Of a stretch of 22,073 nt of DNA, positions 69-20,470 are shown one piece after another. The DNA lies in the IMG/VR virus record IMGVR_UViG_3300025942_000019, positions 1-22,073 of that record; one strand, given 5' to 3'. The DNA is from a virus. The notes under the pieces are model-generated. The model saw nothing but the letters and a program-made list of their open reading frames with translations. It made no database searches and was not told where the DNA came from. The stretch's first letter is position 1. Each line of letters opens with the position of its first letter. Made by a program: the position numbers and the translations under genes.

Positions 69-472
69 TCCGCATCGGCAAGACGTTCCGGTTCGAGGCA
101 GCGCACGTGCTGCCGAACCACGACGGGAAGTGTTCGCGTCCGCACGGGCACTCCTACCAGGTGGAGGTGGTGTTCGCCGCGCCGGCGCTGCCCGAGCGCC
201 AGCCCGGAGCTTCGAGCGAGGGGATGCTGATCGACTTCGGCGACGTGTCGAGCGCGTGGAAGCTGGTCGAGGACGAGTTCGACCACCGCAACCTGAACGA
301 CCGCATCCCGGCGAGCTTCCACCCGACCACCGCTGAGAACATCGCGCGCTACCTGCTCGCCTACTTCCAGTCGGAACTGCCCGACCACCTGGCCGAGGCG
401 GAGGCCGGCGTGATGGTCGAGAAGGTGCGGGTGTGGGAGACGGCGACCGGGTGGGCGGAGGCGTGGGCATGA
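65..472 (+). CDS. queD: QueD, 6-carboxy-5,6,7,8-tetrahydropterin synthase
   Basis: Converts dihydroneopterin triphosphate to 6-carboxytetrahydropterin, the second step toward preQ0. The 135-aa length is normal for the family. Visible features are the zinc histidines His14 (FEAAH), His27 and His29 (PHGHSY), the catalytic Cys23 of the CxxxHGH motif, the LIDFGD segment (55-60), Asp73-His74 (FDHRNLND) of the catalytic relay, and Glu125 (VWET) that anchors the pterin. GTG start at 65 is preceded by GGTAGGG at 51-57 and overlaps the upstream stop. The end overlaps queE by four bases (ATGA). It sits first in the visible queD-queE-folE-queC-dpdA block, which fixes its role as a QueD rather than a eukaryotic-type PTPS. 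Confidence 0.95.
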   Translation: MIRIGKTFRFEAAHVLPNHDGKCSRPHGHSYQVEVVFAAPALPERQPGASSEGMLIDFGDVSSAWKLVEDEFDHRNLNDRIPASFHPTTAENIARYLLAYFQSELPDHLAEAEAGVMVEKVRVWETATGWAEAWA

Positions 473-1218
473 GCGCCACGCAGCGCGACACGCTGACGGT
501 GCCGATCAGCGAGGTGTTCGGTCCGGTGGTGCAGGGCGAAGGGCCGCTCGCCGGCCACGTGACCGCGTTCGTGCGCGTCGCCGGCTGCGACTACCGGTGC
601 AGCTGGTGCGACACGCCGTACGCGGTGCTGCCCGAGCAGTGGGCACGCACCGCCGAACGACTCACGTACCTGGAGATCGTGGAGCGCGTGGTGGCGTGCG
701 CGCCCGGCGCGCCGTGGGTGACGCTGAGCGGCGGCAACCCCGCGCTGTACGACCTCGAGCACCTGGTGGACGAACTGTCGGTCAACGGGTACAAGAGCGC
801 GATCGAGACGCAGGGTTCGACGTGGAAGCCGTGGATGGAGTTCCTGTCCCTGGTGGTGTGGTCGCCGAAGCCGCCTTCGAGCGGGTGGAGCGCGCGGGCC
901 GAGGCGGAGGCGCCGGCGTTCGCGGCGCACGTGCTCGACTCGGGTGTGCCGGTCGCGATGAAGGTGGTCGTGTTCGACCGCGAGGACTTCCTGTGGGCGC
1001 GAGCGATGCACGACCTGTCCGGGTTCGCTGACGCCGGCCGGCCGCTGTACCTGTCGGTCGGCACCACCCCGGGCGGTGACCTGGCAGAGGTGCGGCGCGA
1101 CGTGGGCGACCGGTACGCGTGGCTGATCCAGCAGGTGTGCGACGCGACGCCACCGCTCGAAGCGATCGTCCTGCCGCAGCTGCACGTGCTCGCGTACGGC
1201 CACGCGCGGGGCGTCTGA
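469..1218 (+). CDS. queE: QueE, 7-carboxy-7-deazaguanine synthase (radical SAM)
   Basis: Radical-SAM enzyme that ring-contracts 6-carboxytetrahydropterin to 7-carboxy-7-deazaguanine. The 249-aa product shows the N-terminal [12 protein letters not shown] segment (15-26) and the iron-sulfur cluster motif Cys40-x3-Cys44-x2-Cys47 ([11 protein letters not shown]), followed by a LSGGNPAL segment matching the SAM-binding GGEP-like region. I chose ATG 469 because it makes an ATGA overlap with queD and has GGCGGAGG just upstream. A GTG at 433 in the same frame would add 12 residues lying inside queD. The gene ends in TGATG shared with folE, so translation is probably coupled. Confidence 0.94.
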
Positions 1219-1796
1219 TGGACAGCGACGTCACGTACCGCTCGCTCCAGCGCACCGTCGGCGACATGCTGCTGGCGATCGGTGAAGACCCCGACCGTGA
1301 CGGGCTGCAGGAGACACCGCGCCGGTTCGCGGACGCGCTGCTCGACATGACCTCCGGGTTGGGTGAAGACCCCGGGATGCACCTGCGCACGTTCGACTCG
1401 GACGGGTACGACGAGATCGTGGTCGTGAAGGACATCCCCGTCCGCAGCCTGTGCGAGCACCACCTGCTGCCGTTCGTGGGCGTCGCGCACGTCGCGTACC
1501 TGCCCGCCGGACGGATCGTCGGCCTGTCGAAGCTCGCACGGCTGGTGGACGGGTACGCGCGCCGCTTGCAGGTGCAGGAGCGGTTGACGATGCAGGTCGC
1601 GTCCACCCTCGCCGAGTCGCCGGTGGAGCCGCGCGGCGTGGCAGTCGTGATCGAGGCCGAGCATATGTGCATGACGATGCGCGGCGTGAAGGCACCCGGC
1701 ACGCGCACCACCACATCGGTGATGCTGGGCCGGTTCCGCGAGCACCCGCCGGCACGCGCCGAGGTGCTCGACCTACTCCGAGGGGGACCCCGATGA
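1218..1796 (+). CDS. folE: FolE, GTP cyclohydrolase I
   Basis: Opens GTP to 7,8-dihydroneopterin triphosphate, the committed step that feeds QueD. The 192-aa protein has the canonical core: zinc ligands Cys79 and His82 (LCEHHLLPF) and Cys151, catalytic His81 and His149 ([10 protein letters not shown]), the [17 protein letters not shown] segment (102-118) and the TRTTTS end of the active site. ATG 1218 shares its A with the queE stop (TGATG). Another in-frame start at 1119 lies wholly inside queE and adds an arginine-rich, non-family tail, so it is rejected. A phage copy of folE placed among que genes suggests the phage boosts precursor supply beyond what host folate synthesis gives. Confidence 0.95.
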
Positions 1797-2506
1797 CTAG
1801 CGCACTCGTCCTGTTCAGCGGCGGGCAGGACTCCACCACCTGCCTCGCGTGGGCACTGCACGAGCAGACCGAGAACCGGATCGGGTTCGACGAGGTGGCT
1901 GCGCTCAGCTTCGACTACGGCCAGCGGCACGCGGTCGAGCTGCACTGCGCGGACGAGATCACCGACGCGTGGGGCGTGCCGCACTGGTCGCTCGGGCTGC
2001 CGATCCTGCACGAGCTACACGGCGGCGCGCTCACCGACGGTGGCCGCAAGATCGAGGCGCAGGCAACGACCGGCTACCAGGCCGACAAGGGCCTACCGTC
2101 CACGTTCATCCCGGGCCGGAACCTGTTGTTCTTCACGGCCGCTGCGGCGTTCGGCGTGCCGCGCGACTTCAAGACGCTCGTGACCGGTATCTGCCAGGCC
2201 GACGACGCCGGCTACCCGGACTGTCGCGGCACGTTCGCGCACGCCGCGGAGGCCGCGATCCGCCTCGCGCTGGACGAGCCGACCTTCACCATCGAGGCGC
2301 CGCTGTTGTACCGCTCGAAGGCGGAGACGTGGAAGCTCGCGGACGAGCTCGGGGTGCTGCAGGACGTGATCCGCCGGACGCACACGTGCTACCAGGGCAA
2401 CCGCTCGGTGCTGCACCCGTGGGGGTACGGGTGCGGTGAGTGTCCCGCGTGCGGCGAGCGTGCGAAGGGCTGGGCGCAGGCGTTCGGCGATCGCGCTGTG
2501 GTGTGA
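1793..2506 (+). CDS. queC: QueC, 7-cyano-7-deazaguanine (preQ0) synthase
   Basis: ATP-dependent ligase that turns CDG plus ammonia into preQ0. The 237-aa protein starts with the PP-loop SGGQDST (9-15) used for adenylation. It carries the FDYGQRH segment, the [11 protein letters not shown] loop, and the C-terminal zinc site Cys199, Cys214, Cys217, Cys220 ([11 protein letters not shown]). ATG 1793 overlaps the folE stop (ATGA) and follows CCGAGGGGGA. A frame extension back to 1451 lies inside folE and is a shadow. The stop overlaps the GTG start of dpdA. No fusion to an amidotransferase domain is present, so this QueC should stop at the nitrile, preQ0. Confidence 0.95.
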
Positions 2507-3345: not shown

Positions 3346-4013
3346 AGCCGATCGAGGTCGTGCACGTACCAGCGGACACGCTGCGAGCGAACGCGTGGAA
3401 CCCGAACGAGCAGACGCCGCGGGTGCGCGAGGCGGTCGGCGAGTCGGTCGCCGAGTTCGGGTTCATCGACCCGATCCTGGTGCGGCCCCACCCGGACGGG
3501 TCCGGGTACGAGATCGTGGACGGCGAGCACCGGTGGGAAGCCGCGCTCGCCGCCGGCGCGACGGACGTGCCGGTGATCGTGCGTGACCTGTCCGACGCGG
3601 ACGCGAAGCGGTTGACGGTGATCCTGAACGAGACGCGGGGGCAGGCGGACACGATCGGCCTCGCGCAGCTGCTGGCGCAACTGGACGACGAGATCGGCAC
3701 CGACGCGCTGCTGAAGGGCCTGCCGTACACCGGCGACGAGTTGGCGGACCTGGTGAAGATGGCGGACGTGGACTGGGGTCACGTGGACATGCGTCGCGGC
3801 GGGCCGGTCGAGTCGAAGCGGCGTGGCGGTGGGGCGGTCACCGATCCCGGGTGGCACACGATCAACGTGCGCGTGACGGACGAGCAGCACGCCGTGCTCG
3901 CAGACGCGTTCACCCGGTACATGGCGGATCGGGACGGGGAGATCGCGGAGGACGTCGCGTGGGGCTTGTTCGTGGAGCACCTGGCGGCGGACTACCTCGC
4001 CGGCCCCGGTTGA
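3333..4013 (+). CDS. ParB-like (ParB/Srx fold) protein, possible partner of DpdA
   Basis: A 226-aa protein with an N-terminal ParB/Srx domain at about residues 5-105: WNPNEQ (22-27), GFIDPILVRP (43-52), the nucleotide-binding VDGEHRWEA motif (62-70, replacing the GERR of chromosomal ParB) and ILNETRG (98-104). No central helix-turn-helix typical of partition ParB is evident. Residues 176-226 form a separate module that recurs as the small gene at 4918-5172. GTG 3333 lies inside dpdA and follows GAGAGG (3321-3326) at good spacing; GTG 3342 is an alternative. Bacterial Dpd systems need a ParB/DndB-like ATPase (DpdB) with DpdA, so the overlap with dpdA suggests a similar accessory role. A partition or nuclease role is the alternative. 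Confidence 0.82.
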   Translation: MAGVKPIEVVHVPADTLRANAWNPNEQTPRVREAVGESVAEFGFIDPILVRPHPDGSGYEIVDGEHRWEAALAAGATDVPVIVRDLSDADAKRLTVILNETRGQADTIGLAQLLAQLDDEIGTDALLKGLPYTGDELADLVKMADVDWGHVDMRRGGPVESKRRGGGAVTDPGWHTINVRVTDEQHAVLADAFTRYMADRDGEIAEDVAWGLFVEHLAADYLAGPG

Positions 4014-4078
4014 TGAAGCGTTCGTGAAGCTGAGTTCCATGGGGAGACAACGCGAAGCGTTCGTGTGAACCTACGTAC
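4012..4078 (+). promoter_or_regulatory. Promoter cassette copy A (leaderless-type)
   Basis: This 67-base element runs from the stop codon of the ParB-like gene to the ATG at 4079. It opens with GATGAAGCGTTCGTGAA (4012-4028), then GGGGAGACA (4041-4049). GAGACA at 4044-4049 serves as a -35-like hexamer (TTGACA at 4 of 6). A 17-base spacer separates it from GAACCT (4067-4072, preceded by TGT, an extended -10 feature), then six bases to ATG. No Shine-Dalgarno lies at normal distance from ATG. Copies B, C and D elsewhere keep the same geometry. The promoter reading is inference; the repeat itself is directly visible. Confidence 0.7.
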
Positions 4079-4324
4079 ATGGGAACCACGCAGAACACCA
4101 CCGAGAACCTGACCGCCGCGATCGCCCGCCTCGACGCTGGCAAGGCGTACTGGATGGTCACGCGCTACCTCAGCGACGACGCCTACGACCTGGCGACCCG
4201 CGCCTCCGAGAACCTGCACGGCGTCGGCCTCACCGGGCTGTGCGAAGACATCCGCGACGGCCACGCCGACTACAGCGACCTTCGCGACGCGCTCGCCACC
4301 GCGCTGAACGTCACGCTCCACTAG
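4079..4324 (+). CDS. Small phage protein of unknown function, MGTT start
   Basis: An 81-aa protein that begins MGTTQNTTENL, the same opening found in two other cassette genes (8513 minus, 20237 plus). The remainder is helical and mildly acidic, with no Cys, no membrane segment and no recognised domain (TAAIARLDAGKAYWMV, LTGLCEDIRDGHAD). It is preceded by promoter cassette A and followed 13 bases later by a strong hairpin, so it forms a self-contained transcription unit. Codon use is like its neighbours. Function unknown. Confidence 0.75.
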   Translation: MGTTQNTTENLTAAIARLDAGKAYWMVTRYLSDDAYDLATRASENLHGVGLTGLCEDIRDGHADYSDLRDALATALNVTLH

Positions 4325-5172: not shown

Positions 5173-5531
5173 GCACGACGCACACGTACCACCCGGACAG
5201 CCTGGAGCACGGCCTGTCGGACGACTGTCCGCGCTGCTCGGAGCACGCGAACGACCCGCTCGTGTCGCTCGACCAGGCGCACGTGGAGGCGCTGTGGCGG
5301 CAGATGGTGGCGGTCGAGTTCGGCGGCGGCGGCATGTACCGGTCGCACGCCGAGGCGCGGGCGTGCCGGCACCTCTACAGCCTCGGGCTGTTCCTGCAGC
5401 GGATCGGGATCGACCCGCGGGCGGTGCAGCTCGACCCGCCCGCGGTGATCGACACGCCGTGCATGGACTGCGGCCAGCTGCACCACGCAGCCCGTTGTCC
5501 CCGCTGCGGGACGGCCCGTAGGCGCACATGA
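5169..5531 (+). CDS. Small zinc-binding phage protein
   Basis: A 120-aa protein with an N-terminal DDCPRCSEHANDP segment (about 18-30), of a style frequent in actinophage small proteins, and a C-terminal zinc ribbon with two CxxC knuckles (CMDCGQ and RCPRCG). The middle is helical. ATG 5169 overlaps the previous stop (ATGA) and follows GGAGGGA. Earlier in-frame starts back to 5067 lie in the previous gene. It is the last gene of the rightward block. It may bind nucleic acid or a protein; no specific role is known to me. Confidence 0.75.
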   Translation: MSTTHTYHPDSLEHGLSDDCPRCSEHANDPLVSLDQAHVEALWRQMVAVEFGGGGMYRSHAEARACRHLYSLGLFLQRIGIDPRAVQLDPPAVIDTPCMDCGQLHHAARCPRCGTARRRT

Positions 5532-5543: not shown

Positions 5544-5637
5544 GCACAGCGCGGCCCTGTCGCGCGTTGAGGGGCCTAGGCACCCTACCCCACAGGGTCG
5601 GCACCTTTGGCCGGCAGACGGCCGCTATGCGCCGCAT
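5544..5637. other. First part of the non-coding stretch 5532-5904
   Basis: No gene is supported here. Two weak hairpins can be drawn (ACCCT...AGGGT at 5582-5598 and GGCCG...CGGCC around 5609-5623). The rest of the 373-base gap is taken up by promoter cassette B, a possible non-coding transcript and the convergent terminator, listed separately. Confidence 0.5.
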
Positions 5638-5703
5638 GATGAAGCGTGCGTGAACCTGGGCGCGGAGGGGAGACAGCGCGAGCGTCCCGTGCGAACGTTG
5701 TTG
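5638..5703 (+). promoter_or_regulatory. Promoter cassette copy B
   Basis: The element aligns gaplessly to copies A and C. GATGAAGCGTGCGTGAACCT (5638-5657) has one change in its first 17 bases relative to A and C. GGGGAGACA is conserved, with GAGACA at 5670-5675. A 17-base spacer follows, then GAACGT (5693-5698, preceded by TGC). Five bases later is GTG at 5704, where copies A, C and D have ATG six bases after the -10. Unlike the other copies it does not lead into a recognisable gene. Confidence 0.65.
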
Positions 5704-5898
5704 GTGCAGGGCCGGGAGCGCGAGTTAGTAACCCGGCCGGGACGGCAGCGGTAACCACTCCGCACGGATCGCCCGAAGCCCGAGCTACGAACTAGGGGGC
5801 CACGGCGGCAGAGATCGCGCCCGGTGTCGTTGGCATCCGCCGATGGCCCTGCACATGAGCGAGCACTAGGAGGGCCGGCACCGACGGGTGCCGGCCCT
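5704..5898 (+). ncRNA. Candidate short transcript without a gene, from cassette B to terminator
   Basis: Downstream of promoter cassette B lies about 195 bases ending in the strong terminator at 5871-5898. The only reading frame at the expected start position is 16 codons (GTG 5704 to TAA 5752-5754), encoding a short Arg-rich peptide unlike the MGTT genes. A hairpin GGCCGGG (5710-5716)/CCCGGCC (5732-5738) lies at the 5' end. No tRNA cloverleaf or T-loop could be fitted. It may be a small RNA, a leader peptide, or the remains of a lost cassette gene. Speculative. Confidence 0.35.
5871..5898. terminator. Bidirectional terminator between convergent operons
   Basis: AGGGCCGGCACC (5871-5882) and GGTGCCGGCCCT (5887-5898) form a perfect 12-bp stem with a four-base GACG loop. 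It lies six bases beyond the endolysin stop on the minus strand and at the end of the rightward region, so it can serve both directions. Confidence 0.8.
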
Positions 5899-5904
5899 CG
5901 GTGT

Positions 5905-6459
5905 CTAGGCGTTCGGCGCGGCCAGCCAGCCGTGCTGATGGTAGAACCGCACGGTGTCCATGAACCACGCGAGCGGGAAGTTCCGGCCCGGGTCGGTGTG
6001 GTTCGACACGTGGTACGCGGCGCTGTACATGCCGTGCGTGGCGATGCCGTGCACGGTGCTCAGCGCGATCGGGATCGAGTGCGTCTCGCACCAGTACGCG
6101 CACCATTTCGCGCCCTGCTTCAGGCCCTTCGTCATCGCCACCCACTGCGCACGGGTGAGCGCCGCGGAGCCGATGAACTCGATGTGCAGCCGCCCGGTGT
6201 TCGCGCCGGCGACCGCCCAACACTTGCGCACGTCCAGCGCACACTTCGCGGTCAGGCCCTCGCCGTCGATCACCAGGTGCGCGTTGTAGCCCGCGCCCTG
6301 GTTCTTCCAGAAGTTCGGGATCGCGAGCACGTCCGAGATGCCCGGCCGGTTCATCGACTCGGTGCAGTGCAGCACGATCGCGGACGGGTCTTGGCTGCCG
6401 TGCGTGGCGCCGGCGACCCGCTTGTTGATCACCGGATGGTCGTGCGTGCGCGCCGCCAT
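5905..6459 (-). CDS. Endolysin, N-acetylmuramoyl-L-alanine amidase (Amidase_2/PGRP fold)
   Basis: A 184-aa zinc amidase predicted to cut between MurNAc and the stem peptide of host peptidoglycan at lysis. Visible motifs are IVLHCTES (28-35, zinc His31), GYNAHLVID (57-65), GRLHIEF (89-95), THGMYSAAYH (141-150, candidate zinc His142) and NHTDPGRNFP (153-162), the typical DPG end of Amidase_2 enzymes. It consists only of a catalytic domain: no cell-wall-binding repeats and no signal peptide, so release should depend on the holin at 6605-6781. ATG 6459 overlaps the stop of the upstream small acidic gene (TGATG). It is the last gene of the leftward late operon, directly before the bidirectional terminator. 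Confidence 0.88.
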   Translation of the reverse strand: MAARTHDHPVINKRVAGATHGSQDPSAIVLHCTESMNRPGISDVLAIPNFWKNQGAGYNAHLVIDGEGLTAKCALDVRKCWAVAGANTGRLHIEFIGSAALTRAQWVAMTKGLKQGAKWCAYWCETHSIPIALSTVHGIATHGMYSAAYHVSNHTDPGRNFPLAWFMDTVRFYHQHGWLAAPNA

Positions 6460-6797: not shown

Positions 6798-7559
6798 TCA
6801 CGGACGACACGTGAACGTGCCGTCCCCGTTGTCGGTGCACGTCAGCACCGCCGGGAACTGCGCGTCCGCGCCGGCCGGCCCTGGCGGCCCCTGCGGCCCT
6901 TCCGGCCCCGGGTCACCCTGCGGCCCCTGCGGACCAGGCGGCCCTGTGGCGCCGTCCTGGCCGGCTGGACCGGCCGGCCCCTGCGACCCGTCCGCACCAG
7001 CTGCGCCCTGCGCGCCCTGCGCACCCGTCGCGCCGGCGTCGCCCTGCACCCCCGGCGTGCCCTGCGGCCCCTGCGGGCCGCGCAGCCCCGGGATGCCCTG
7101 CGACCCCGGCCGGCCCGGCGTGCCCGGCACACCCGGCGTTCCCGGCCGGCCCGGCGCGCCCGGCTGCAGGCCGAGGCACCGCGCCACCTCCAGCGCCGTC
7201 TTCTTGAACAGGCACTTCACGATCAGCGTGCCCTGCGCCTGGGCCGACTGCGCCTTCGCGTCCGCGAGCGCCGCGTCCAGCTTCGAGCTCGTCGCGTCCG
7301 CCTTCGCCTGTGCGGCCTTCGCAGCGACCAGCGCCGCCGCGCGATCCTGCTTGTCCGACCGCTCGCTCGCAGCCTGCACCGACAGGTAGATCGCGACGCC
7401 GGACAGCAGCGCGGTCAGCACCACCCCGATCCCGACCATCAGCACCGCCCGGTGCGTGCGTCGCAGCGACGCCAGGTACACCTGCCCCGTCTGCTCGATC
7501 GCGTGCAGCGCCTCCGTGCCGGCCGGCGTTGGATCGTGATGCGGTACCAGGTCAGACAC
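6798..7559 (-). CDS. Membrane-anchored collagen-like protein in the lysis region
   Basis: A 253-aa protein in four parts: a cytoplasmic N-terminus (1-37), one transmembrane helix (about 38-60, [20 protein letters not shown]), an Ala/Lys/Asp-rich coiled-coil stalk (about 61-115) and, after a linker with two Cys, 33 unbroken Gly-X-Y triplets (residues 134-232), closed by a short tail with [11 protein letters not shown] that may form a disulfide. A trimeric rod projecting from the host membrane is expected. GTG 7559 follows GGGGGGA and overlaps the 7552-7887 gene by eight bases; the longer reading from 7616 lies inside that gene. Collagen repeats are common in phage fibres, but here membrane anchoring and position beside the holin suggest an envelope or lysis role. 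Confidence 0.78.
6864..7160 (-). repeat. Collagen-type Gly-X-Y repeat tract
   Basis: This stretch encodes 33 consecutive Gly-X-Y triplets with Pro, Gln and Ala common at X and Y. At DNA level it is an imperfect 9-base periodic GC-rich repeat, a likely site of length variation by slippage or recombination between related phages. Confidence 0.85.
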
Positions 7560-8003: not shown

Positions 8004-8513
8004 CTACAGCAGCCCCGCCGCCTCCCACACCTGCCGCTTCAGTTCGTTCAGCTGCTCGGTGGTGTAGCCGCGGTTCGCGCGGATCGTGTCCTGGTCGGTG
8101 TGCCAGCGGTGCGTGCCGAGCGTGATGATCCACTTGGCCGGCACCAGCCGCCGCGCCTCGCCGAACGAGAACCGGTACGCCGGGTCGCTCGGGTCGATCG
8201 TCGGGTCGGCGATCAGGGTGCCGCCGTCGTCCAGCGTGCCGCGGCGGATCTCGGTGACCCGCTGCCAGGCGTTGCCGCCGCCCGACCGCGCCGCGAAGAC
8301 CTTCCAGCCAACCTGCACGTCCTCGACCGGCGTCTCCAGCGCGGCGAGGTACAGGTCGCGCTGCTGCTCGCCCTTGGCGGTCCGCTGCTTGCCAGTGCCG
8401 CCGCAACCCCAACAGGTGTCGCCGTCGCGCATGTTGAAGCTGTACCGGCCCGAGCCGCCGCAGCGCGTGCACTCGGTGGTGTCGTACTTGAGGGTGTCAG
8501 CGGTGGTTCCCAT
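8004..8513 (-). CDS. DnaJ-type zinc-finger small protein, MGTT start
   Basis: A 169-aa protein that begins MGTTADTLKYDTTE and then has two CxxCGGxG knuckles (CTRCGGSGR at about 17-25 and CWGCGGTGK at about 36-44), the pattern of the DnaJ central zinc domain. The remaining 120 residues are mixed alpha/beta with no recognised motif. I use ATG 8513 because it matches the start position in cassettes A and D; an in-frame ATG at 8534 lies in the promoter. It sits between the fibre genes and the lysis genes with its own promoter cassette and hairpin, so it looks like an inserted accessory gene (moron). Role unknown; zinc-mediated binding is likely. Confidence 0.75.
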   Translation of the reverse strand: MGTTADTLKYDTTECTRCGGSGRYSFNMRDGDTCWGCGGTGKQRTAKGEQQRDLYLAALETPVEDVQVGWKVFAARSGGGNAWQRVTEIRRGTLDDGGTLIADPTIDPSDPAYRFSFGEARRLVPAKWIITLGTHRWHTDQDTIRANRGYTTEQLNELKRQVWEAAGLL

Positions 8514-8580
8514 GTACCCATAGTCACGCCCCACGTTCGCGCTGTCTCCCCTCTCGCGGAAGGTTCACGAACGCTTCATC
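8514..8580 (-). promoter_or_regulatory. Promoter cassette copy C
   Basis: Read on the minus strand from 8580, the element starts inside the stop codon of the previous gene with the same 17 bases as copy A (GATGAAGCGTTCGTGAA). GGGGAGACA follows, with GAGACA at 8548-8543. A 17-base spacer leads to GACTAT (8525-8520), then GGGTAC and ATG at 8513. The total length of 67 bases is exactly that of copy A. Confidence 0.72.
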
Positions 8581-20139: not shown

Positions 20140-20177
20140 TCGGGGCGACAGCGTACAGGCCGCTCGCCCGGACGCTT

Positions 20178-20236
20178 CATCAACGCTTCACGTTCCAGGC
20201 CGAGACACGGCGAGCGTGCAGCGTGAACATGGGTAC
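20178..20236 (+). promoter_or_regulatory. Promoter cassette copy D
   Basis: This is the most diverged copy. The upstream block is shorter and altered (CATCAACGCTTCACGTTCC, 20178-20196), but the core is kept: GAGACA (20202-20207), a 17-base spacer, GAACAT (20225-20230), GGGTAC, then ATG 20237. The core spacings equal those of copies A and C even though eight bases are missing upstream, which suggests that the core geometry is under selection. Confidence 0.65.
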
Positions 20237-20470
20237 ATGGGAACCACCGCGAACACCACCGCCCCCCGTTACGCCCAGTACGTCGGCCGCACCCGCACCC
20301 ACGCGAAGACCCGCTACCTGCGCCTGCACTACTACGACGTCGTGCGGATCGTGAAGCTCAACGAGAAGACCGCCATCGTCCGGCCGCTGGAGAACATCCT
20401 GCACGAGCCGACCAGCGAGTTCAGCCACGTGTTCACCGTCAAGCTCGACGACCTCCGAGACGCCCGCTAG
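20237..20470 (+). CDS. Small phage protein of unknown function, MGTT start, inserted against the late operon
   Basis: A 77-aa basic protein beginning MGTTANTTAPRYAQ. The rest is rich in Arg, Tyr, Lys and Val (GRTRTHAKTRYLRLHYYDVV, RIVKLNEKTAIVRPL), suggesting a small beta-barrel that might bind nucleic acid; no family recognised. It is the only plus-strand gene within the late region, and its stop overlaps the stop of the minus-strand gene inside a hairpin (20461-20480). Promoter cassette D lies directly upstream. An earlier ATG at 20229 is out of frame; upstream in-frame extension lies in the opposite-strand gene. Confidence 0.75.
   Translation: MGTTANTTAPRYAQYVGRTRTHAKTRYLRLHYYDVVRIVKLNEKTAIVRPLENILHEPTSEFSHVFTVKLDDLRDAR

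Follow-up and report, generated by a model that had tools for sequence, protein, structure and literature searches.

A candidate structured RNA behind a gene-free promoter cassette in an actinophage-type soil virus

The window, that is the whole stretch of DNA analysed here, is a virus record of 22,073 bases and represents a linear fragment of an uncultured soil virus of actinophage type. Its plus-strand genes, which code for QueE-like, QueC-like and ParB-like proteins and for small ORFs, extend to about position 5531, and its minus-strand genes (head-tail adaptor, tape-measure and tail proteins, a collagen-like protein and the lysin) reach down to 5905. The gap between these two converging blocks is occupied by a promoter cassette and the sequence that follows it, hereafter unit B (Table 1). 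A 266-aa frame starting at 5824 was rejected as a product of this unit, as it runs antisense to the lysin. Elsewhere in the window, a QueE-like radical SAM protein is followed by a QueC-like protein of 351 aa with its QueC domain from residue 118 (433-2506, plus strand); with this pair the phage probably makes a 7-deazaguanine, perhaps used for DNA modification. The protein encoded between the lysin and the tail genes (6842-7160, minus strand) carries glycine-rich collagen-like repeats.

Unit B begins with one of four promoter cassettes that are scattered over both strands of the window: A (4012, plus), B (5638-5703, plus), C (8580, minus) and D (about 20171-20236, plus). These copies and their relatives in other contigs share an anatomy in which a 17-nt pseudo-palindrome (GATGAAGCGTTCGTGAA or the reversed form; in some cassettes it is degenerate or missing) is followed by GAGACA or GAGACT, a spacer of exactly 17 nt, a NANNNT hexamer (TACTAT in its best form), 5-6 nt (7 in one case) and a start codon. 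The pattern GAGACA-N17-NANNNT-N5/6-RTG occurs four times in the window against 0.0125 times per random sequence matched for dinucleotide composition, and the operator core three times against none in such random sequences. Over 62 nt, identity is 71% between A and B, 71% between B and C and 65% between A and C, which bears out the sequence-only reading that copy B is as well conserved as the other two. By its look, the cassette would be a sigma-70-type promoter with a leaderless start, since the distance from the -10 to the ATG puts the predicted mRNA start at the ATG itself. A standard sigma-70 scan fails to detect these promoters because GAGACA is a weak match to the -35 element.

Pattern searches recovered relatives of this cassette family in contigs L011, L006, L174 and L176 and in the L008 record (analysed as L171 and L172), while L135 represents a strain nearly identical to the window phage. 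The upstream element of B recurs, in one orientation or the other, ahead of cassettes A and C and of cassettes in L006, L008 and L011, and the invariant 17-nt promoter spacing of unit B is common to 12 gene-bearing cassettes in six phage contigs. The ATG of the gene-bearing cassettes stands almost always in the context ATGGGAACCA, and the protein start of cassettes A, C and D lies at ATGGGAACCAC. The genes behind the cassettes of the window, L006, L011, L171, L172, L174 and L176 are mostly unrelated, yet they begin with MGTT (ATGGGAACCAC), which implies that the conserved DNA element extends past the start codon. In L011, a relative of cassette A's gene is found behind the cassette at C's place. 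Cassette D and its gene lie on the plus strand within the minus-strand structural block, as expected of an inserted accessory gene. A second dispersed element, GCCGGCAGACGGCCGCTAYGC, is located at 5610-5630, directly upstream of unit B, and also before promoters in the related contigs L171 (5348, minus), L172 (5971, minus) and L176 (7056, plus). Matches to the operator 17-mer in L005, L007, L009 and L010 were considered chance, as no promoter follows them, and so were the matches in L136, L173, L175 and L179. The word GTGTCGTTGGCATCC was found in more than 100 stretches, which were taken as chance from the shortness of the word and not from case-by-case inspection.

Table 1 Coordinates of unit B, the neighbouring lysin gene and the other cassettes of the window
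Feature	Position	Strand	Basis or remark
Cassette A with leaderless 81-codon gene (ATG 4079)	4012-4324	+	Comparison
Upstream element GATGAAGCGTGCGTGAA, putative operator	5638-5654	+	Pseudo-palindrome around GAA-N3-TTC in other copies
Promoter: -35-like GAGACA (5670-5675), 17-nt spacer, -10-like GAACGT (5693-5698)	5670-5698	+	Same spacing throughout the family
Body of putative structured RNA	5704-5854	+	Blocks conserved in L011; length 151 nt in the window and 123 nt in L011
Block 1 of the body	5704-5766	+	
Variable hairpin P3 of the body	about 5767-5813	+	
Block 2 of the body	5816-5854	+	
Closing stem P1, 5' strand GTGCAGGGCC	5704-5713	+	Begins at predicted transcription start
Closing stem P1, 3' strand GGCCCTGCAC	5845-5854	+	
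Leaderless GTG frame of 16 codons and TAA, MQGRERELVTRPGRQR, possible peptide	5704-5754	+	Intact in L011
Unconserved linker	5855-5869	+	15 nt here, 60 nt in L011
Perfect GC-rich 13-bp hairpin, loop GACG	5870-5899		Sequence; identical in L011; lacks a T-run
Lysin gene (Amidase_2), convergent	5905-6459	-	Stop codon 6 nt from the 13-bp hairpin; context
Cassette C with leaderless gene (ATG 8513)	8213-8580	-	Comparison
Cassette D, upstream element reversed, with leaderless 77-codon gene (ATG 20237)	20171-20470	+	Comparison

Unit B retains the operator, the -35, the 17-nt spacer and the -10, and GTGCAGGGCC takes the place of the ATGGGAACCA of the other cassettes. As the sequence-only reading had noticed, this promoter is followed by a frame of just 16 codons, and no longer plus-strand frame belongs to the unit: nothing protein-like is present between the TAA and the 13-bp hairpin. 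That reading also placed a terminator here; the hairpin is indeed present, but its stem has 13 bp rather than the 12 bp at 5871-5898 that were proposed. Terminators lacking a T-run are common in actinobacteria. As the lysin stop codon begins 6 nt beyond it, this hairpin can serve both strands; judging from its sequence, it probably terminates the convergent lysin transcript as well as the RNA. At 5750-5758 the RNA would hold GGTAACCAC, one base off the GGGAACCAC of cassette mRNAs, a likeness that could reflect a shared binding site or chance.

Contig L011 (4,015 bp) is the only other contig found with a close relative of the lysin (88% amino-acid identity), and it carries unit B in the same convergent position beside that gene, again with no gene of its own. 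The two copies differ at one position in the 63 nt of block 1 and at one in the 39 nt of block 2, that is two differences in 102 nt (98% identity), whereas 15 of the 83 four-fold sites of the lysin differ (18%). At the latter rate, two or fewer changes would be expected with P of about 2e-7, a value computed on 105 nt and little changed for the 102 nt of the blocks as counted. The hairpin P3, 28 nt shorter and with a UUCG cap in L011, cannot be aligned between the copies, and neither can the linker, after which the terminator hairpin is identical. Given this 28-nt length change, no shared frame can run through the whole unit: the promoter and the hairpin are present in both contigs with no conserved protein frame throughout, and the 16-codon frame is what remains. 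The plus-strand genes upstream of unit B do not align between the window and L011, which indicates that the unit was kept while its neighbourhood changed. Towards its 3' end the lysin gene itself reaches about 95% identity, so part of the identity of the unit may stem from recent sharing. Yet, recent sharing predicts uniform similarity, and the existence of near-identical blocks flanking wholly changed stretches speaks against it.

Positions 1-10 of the predicted transcript are perfectly complementary to the ten bases that end block 2. This 10-bp closing stem, P1, was absent from the sequence-only reading; a perfect downstream complement to the first 10 nt occurs in 15 of 20,000 random 151-mers. 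In L011, P1 is predicted to meet four more arms at one junction, and the pair probabilities are high. The same fold is possible for the window sequence at -66.4 kcal/mol, with one P2 pair lost (A-C), but an alternative made up of a shorter P1 and a 7-bp hairpin is favoured there by 3.8 kcal/mol; this is the hairpin already reported from the sequence (GGCCGGG at 5710-5716 and CCCGGCC at 5732-5738). Since both alternative folds are encoded in both copies, it is conceivable from these models that the RNA switches between them. Compared with shuffles, the folding energy of the core is unremarkable in the window (z = -0.29), so that the core is no more stable than shuffled sequence there, and moderate in L011 (z = -2.18). 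The whole transcript of the window reaches z = -3.2, which is owed largely to the terminator hairpin, given the -0.29 of the core alone. Alignment with related phages, which had been suggested as a way to look for compensatory base changes or an intact gene at this locus, could be made with L011 and revealed neither: between the two sequences (98.7% of cells paired) no pair changed on both sides. It is thus conservation and P1, rather than covariation, that support the proposed structure.

Further copies or known families were sought in several collections. No Rfam family reached its gathering score, permissive scans giving weak matches only, and ARAGORN called no tRNA or tmRNA. There was no significant match in named phages and plasmids, nor in viral contigs beyond L011; GTAACC..GGTAACC patterns gave, apart from L011, unrelated matches only in viral and GTDB contigs. 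A covariance model of the two copies gave no convincing match in 396 Actinomycetota genomes, nor in the other contigs of the cassette family, where absence says little because these contigs are fragments. A 15-nt match, GTGCAGGGCCGGGAG, in L006 and L128 was discarded, as it lies within one homologous coding gene (VQGRE) and not in an RNA. Pairing of the RNA with the mRNA starts of the cassettes and with the lysin start was no better than with shuffled sequences.

Several scenarios may explain a conserved unit with a promoter, a terminator and no gene. The most probable, to which we attribute a probability of roughly 0.68 on the evidence of sequence comparison, is that unit B, carried as an accessory unit, specifies a structured non-coding RNA some 195 nt long, which would probably function by binding protein. 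The small RNA was one of three options left by the sequence-only reading, and the gene-free unit of L011, with 102 nt at 98% identity, makes it the best supported of them. Another of these options, a leader peptide, has its counterpart in the unlikely scenario that the conserved product is the leaderless 16-codon peptide (MQGRERELVTRPGRQR), alone or from a dual-function RNA: a ribosome would start at the 5'-terminal GUG, and the function would be that of the peptide itself or of its translation across P1 and P2. The GTG sits where the leaderless ATG is found in the other cassettes, and the frame is intact in L011, where the single difference is synonymous (TTA/TTG). With a single change, the 17 third positions show no deficit relative to what coding sequence would be expected to have (P = 0.23), so that block 1 taken by itself cannot separate peptide from RNA. 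Yet, the conserved ATGGGAACCAC context is absent, there is no downstream gene to attenuate, and the 39 nt of block 2 (one difference) as well as 12 nt past the stop codon are conserved in the absence of any frame. Moreover, the frame is at its 5' end exactly complementary to the end of block 2. Block 2, the 12 nt past the stop codon and the long-range complementarity of P1 favour RNA, which may have a dual function.

Since 6 nt separate the unit from the stop codon of the lysin in both contigs, and the terminator hairpin is common to the two, one may also think of a cis element of the lysin, whose expression or termination would be tuned by a 3' UTR structure or by a transcript that is convergent or antisense. 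This seems improbable: the unit has its own promoter directed towards the lysin and a strong hairpin separates them, pairing with the lysin start region is no better than that of shuffled sequence, and blocks 1 and 2 are distant from the overlap. The third option of the sequence-only reading, a scar left by a lost accessory gene, would see in unit B a cassette with a decayed gene, in line with the small orphan genes that other cassettes of the family carry. It is now very hard to defend, as L011 has no intact ORF at this place either and the stretch is among the best conserved, better so than the synonymous sites of the lysin, unlike decaying sequence.

The sequences directly show the cassette, the conservation of the unit and the complementarity that closes it; from these we infer transcription, fold and mode of protein binding of the structured RNA as follows. 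The polymerase would start at about G5704 from the sigma-70-like phage cassette promoter and stop at the 13-bp hairpin common to the RNA and the lysin. The RNA would fold as a multi-branched body whose ends are sealed by the 10-bp helix and whose arm P3 is free to vary. The unit would be carried as a self-contained "moron" comprising operator, promoter, product and terminator, as are the small accessory genes driven by copies of this cassette elsewhere, and would therefore probably be expressed when they are. The RNA would then act in trans by binding a host or phage protein, as a scaffold or decoy. Binding to protein seems likelier than an antisense mechanism because the 5' end would be sealed, stems and loops are equally conserved and no pairing with the cassette mRNAs or the lysin start stood out.

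Phages of Actinobacteria offer several points of comparison. Small non-coding RNAs have been detected by RNAseq and Northern blot in the Cluster A2 mycobacteriophages D29, L5 and StarStuff, the main one starting at the early promoter Pleft at the right end of the genome (PMC5712189). Unit B resembles these RNAs in being, as predicted, non-coding and in the type of location, which for the Cluster A2 RNAs is intergenic or terminal (PMC5712189), but it is known from comparison of sequences alone and is a dispersed cassette beside the lysin. According to the available text of PMC3203893 and PMC7302621, the SAS/ESAS elements of Cluster K mycobacteriophages and Cluster EF Microbacterium phages resemble the cassettes in being conserved, dispersed and associated with start codons in part of the phage genes; in some cases a repeat lies upstream. 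As described there, the SAS is a 13-bp element at the position of the ribosome-binding site, whereas the cassettes comprise a promoter and ATGGGAACCAC with a start predicted to be leaderless; that text reports no gene-free SAS/ESAS member. No 13-bp GGGATAGGAGCCC-like element of the Cluster K type was found 3-7 bp before the start in the cassettes, which differ in both sequence and position. Cluster O mycobacteriophages have 17-bp dyad repeats (PMC4351075), and the Cluster DJ phage Vardy has a 50-bp motif proposed to regulate gene expression (PMC9671010). Both are likewise short repeats dispersed in phages of Actinobacteria, but their sequences differ from the cassettes and the Cluster O sites have no tie to start codons. 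Unit B thus shares its kind, but not its sequence, with the elements of Clusters A2, K, EF, O and DJ.

More tentatively, the RNA of unit B could found a new class of structured RNAs in phages: a compact, multi-branched accessory RNA which would inhibit or recruit a host protein, e.g. a defence or transcription factor, under a phage regulon whose other products are small orphan proteins. In phage annotation, transcription units that hold no gene are easily overlooked. The conservation of unit B in a relative goes beyond that of synonymous sites, the promoter grammar of its regulon is readable, and its predicted ends are exact. If real, it would add an RNA product to the small-gene cassettes by which these phages may manage their hosts.
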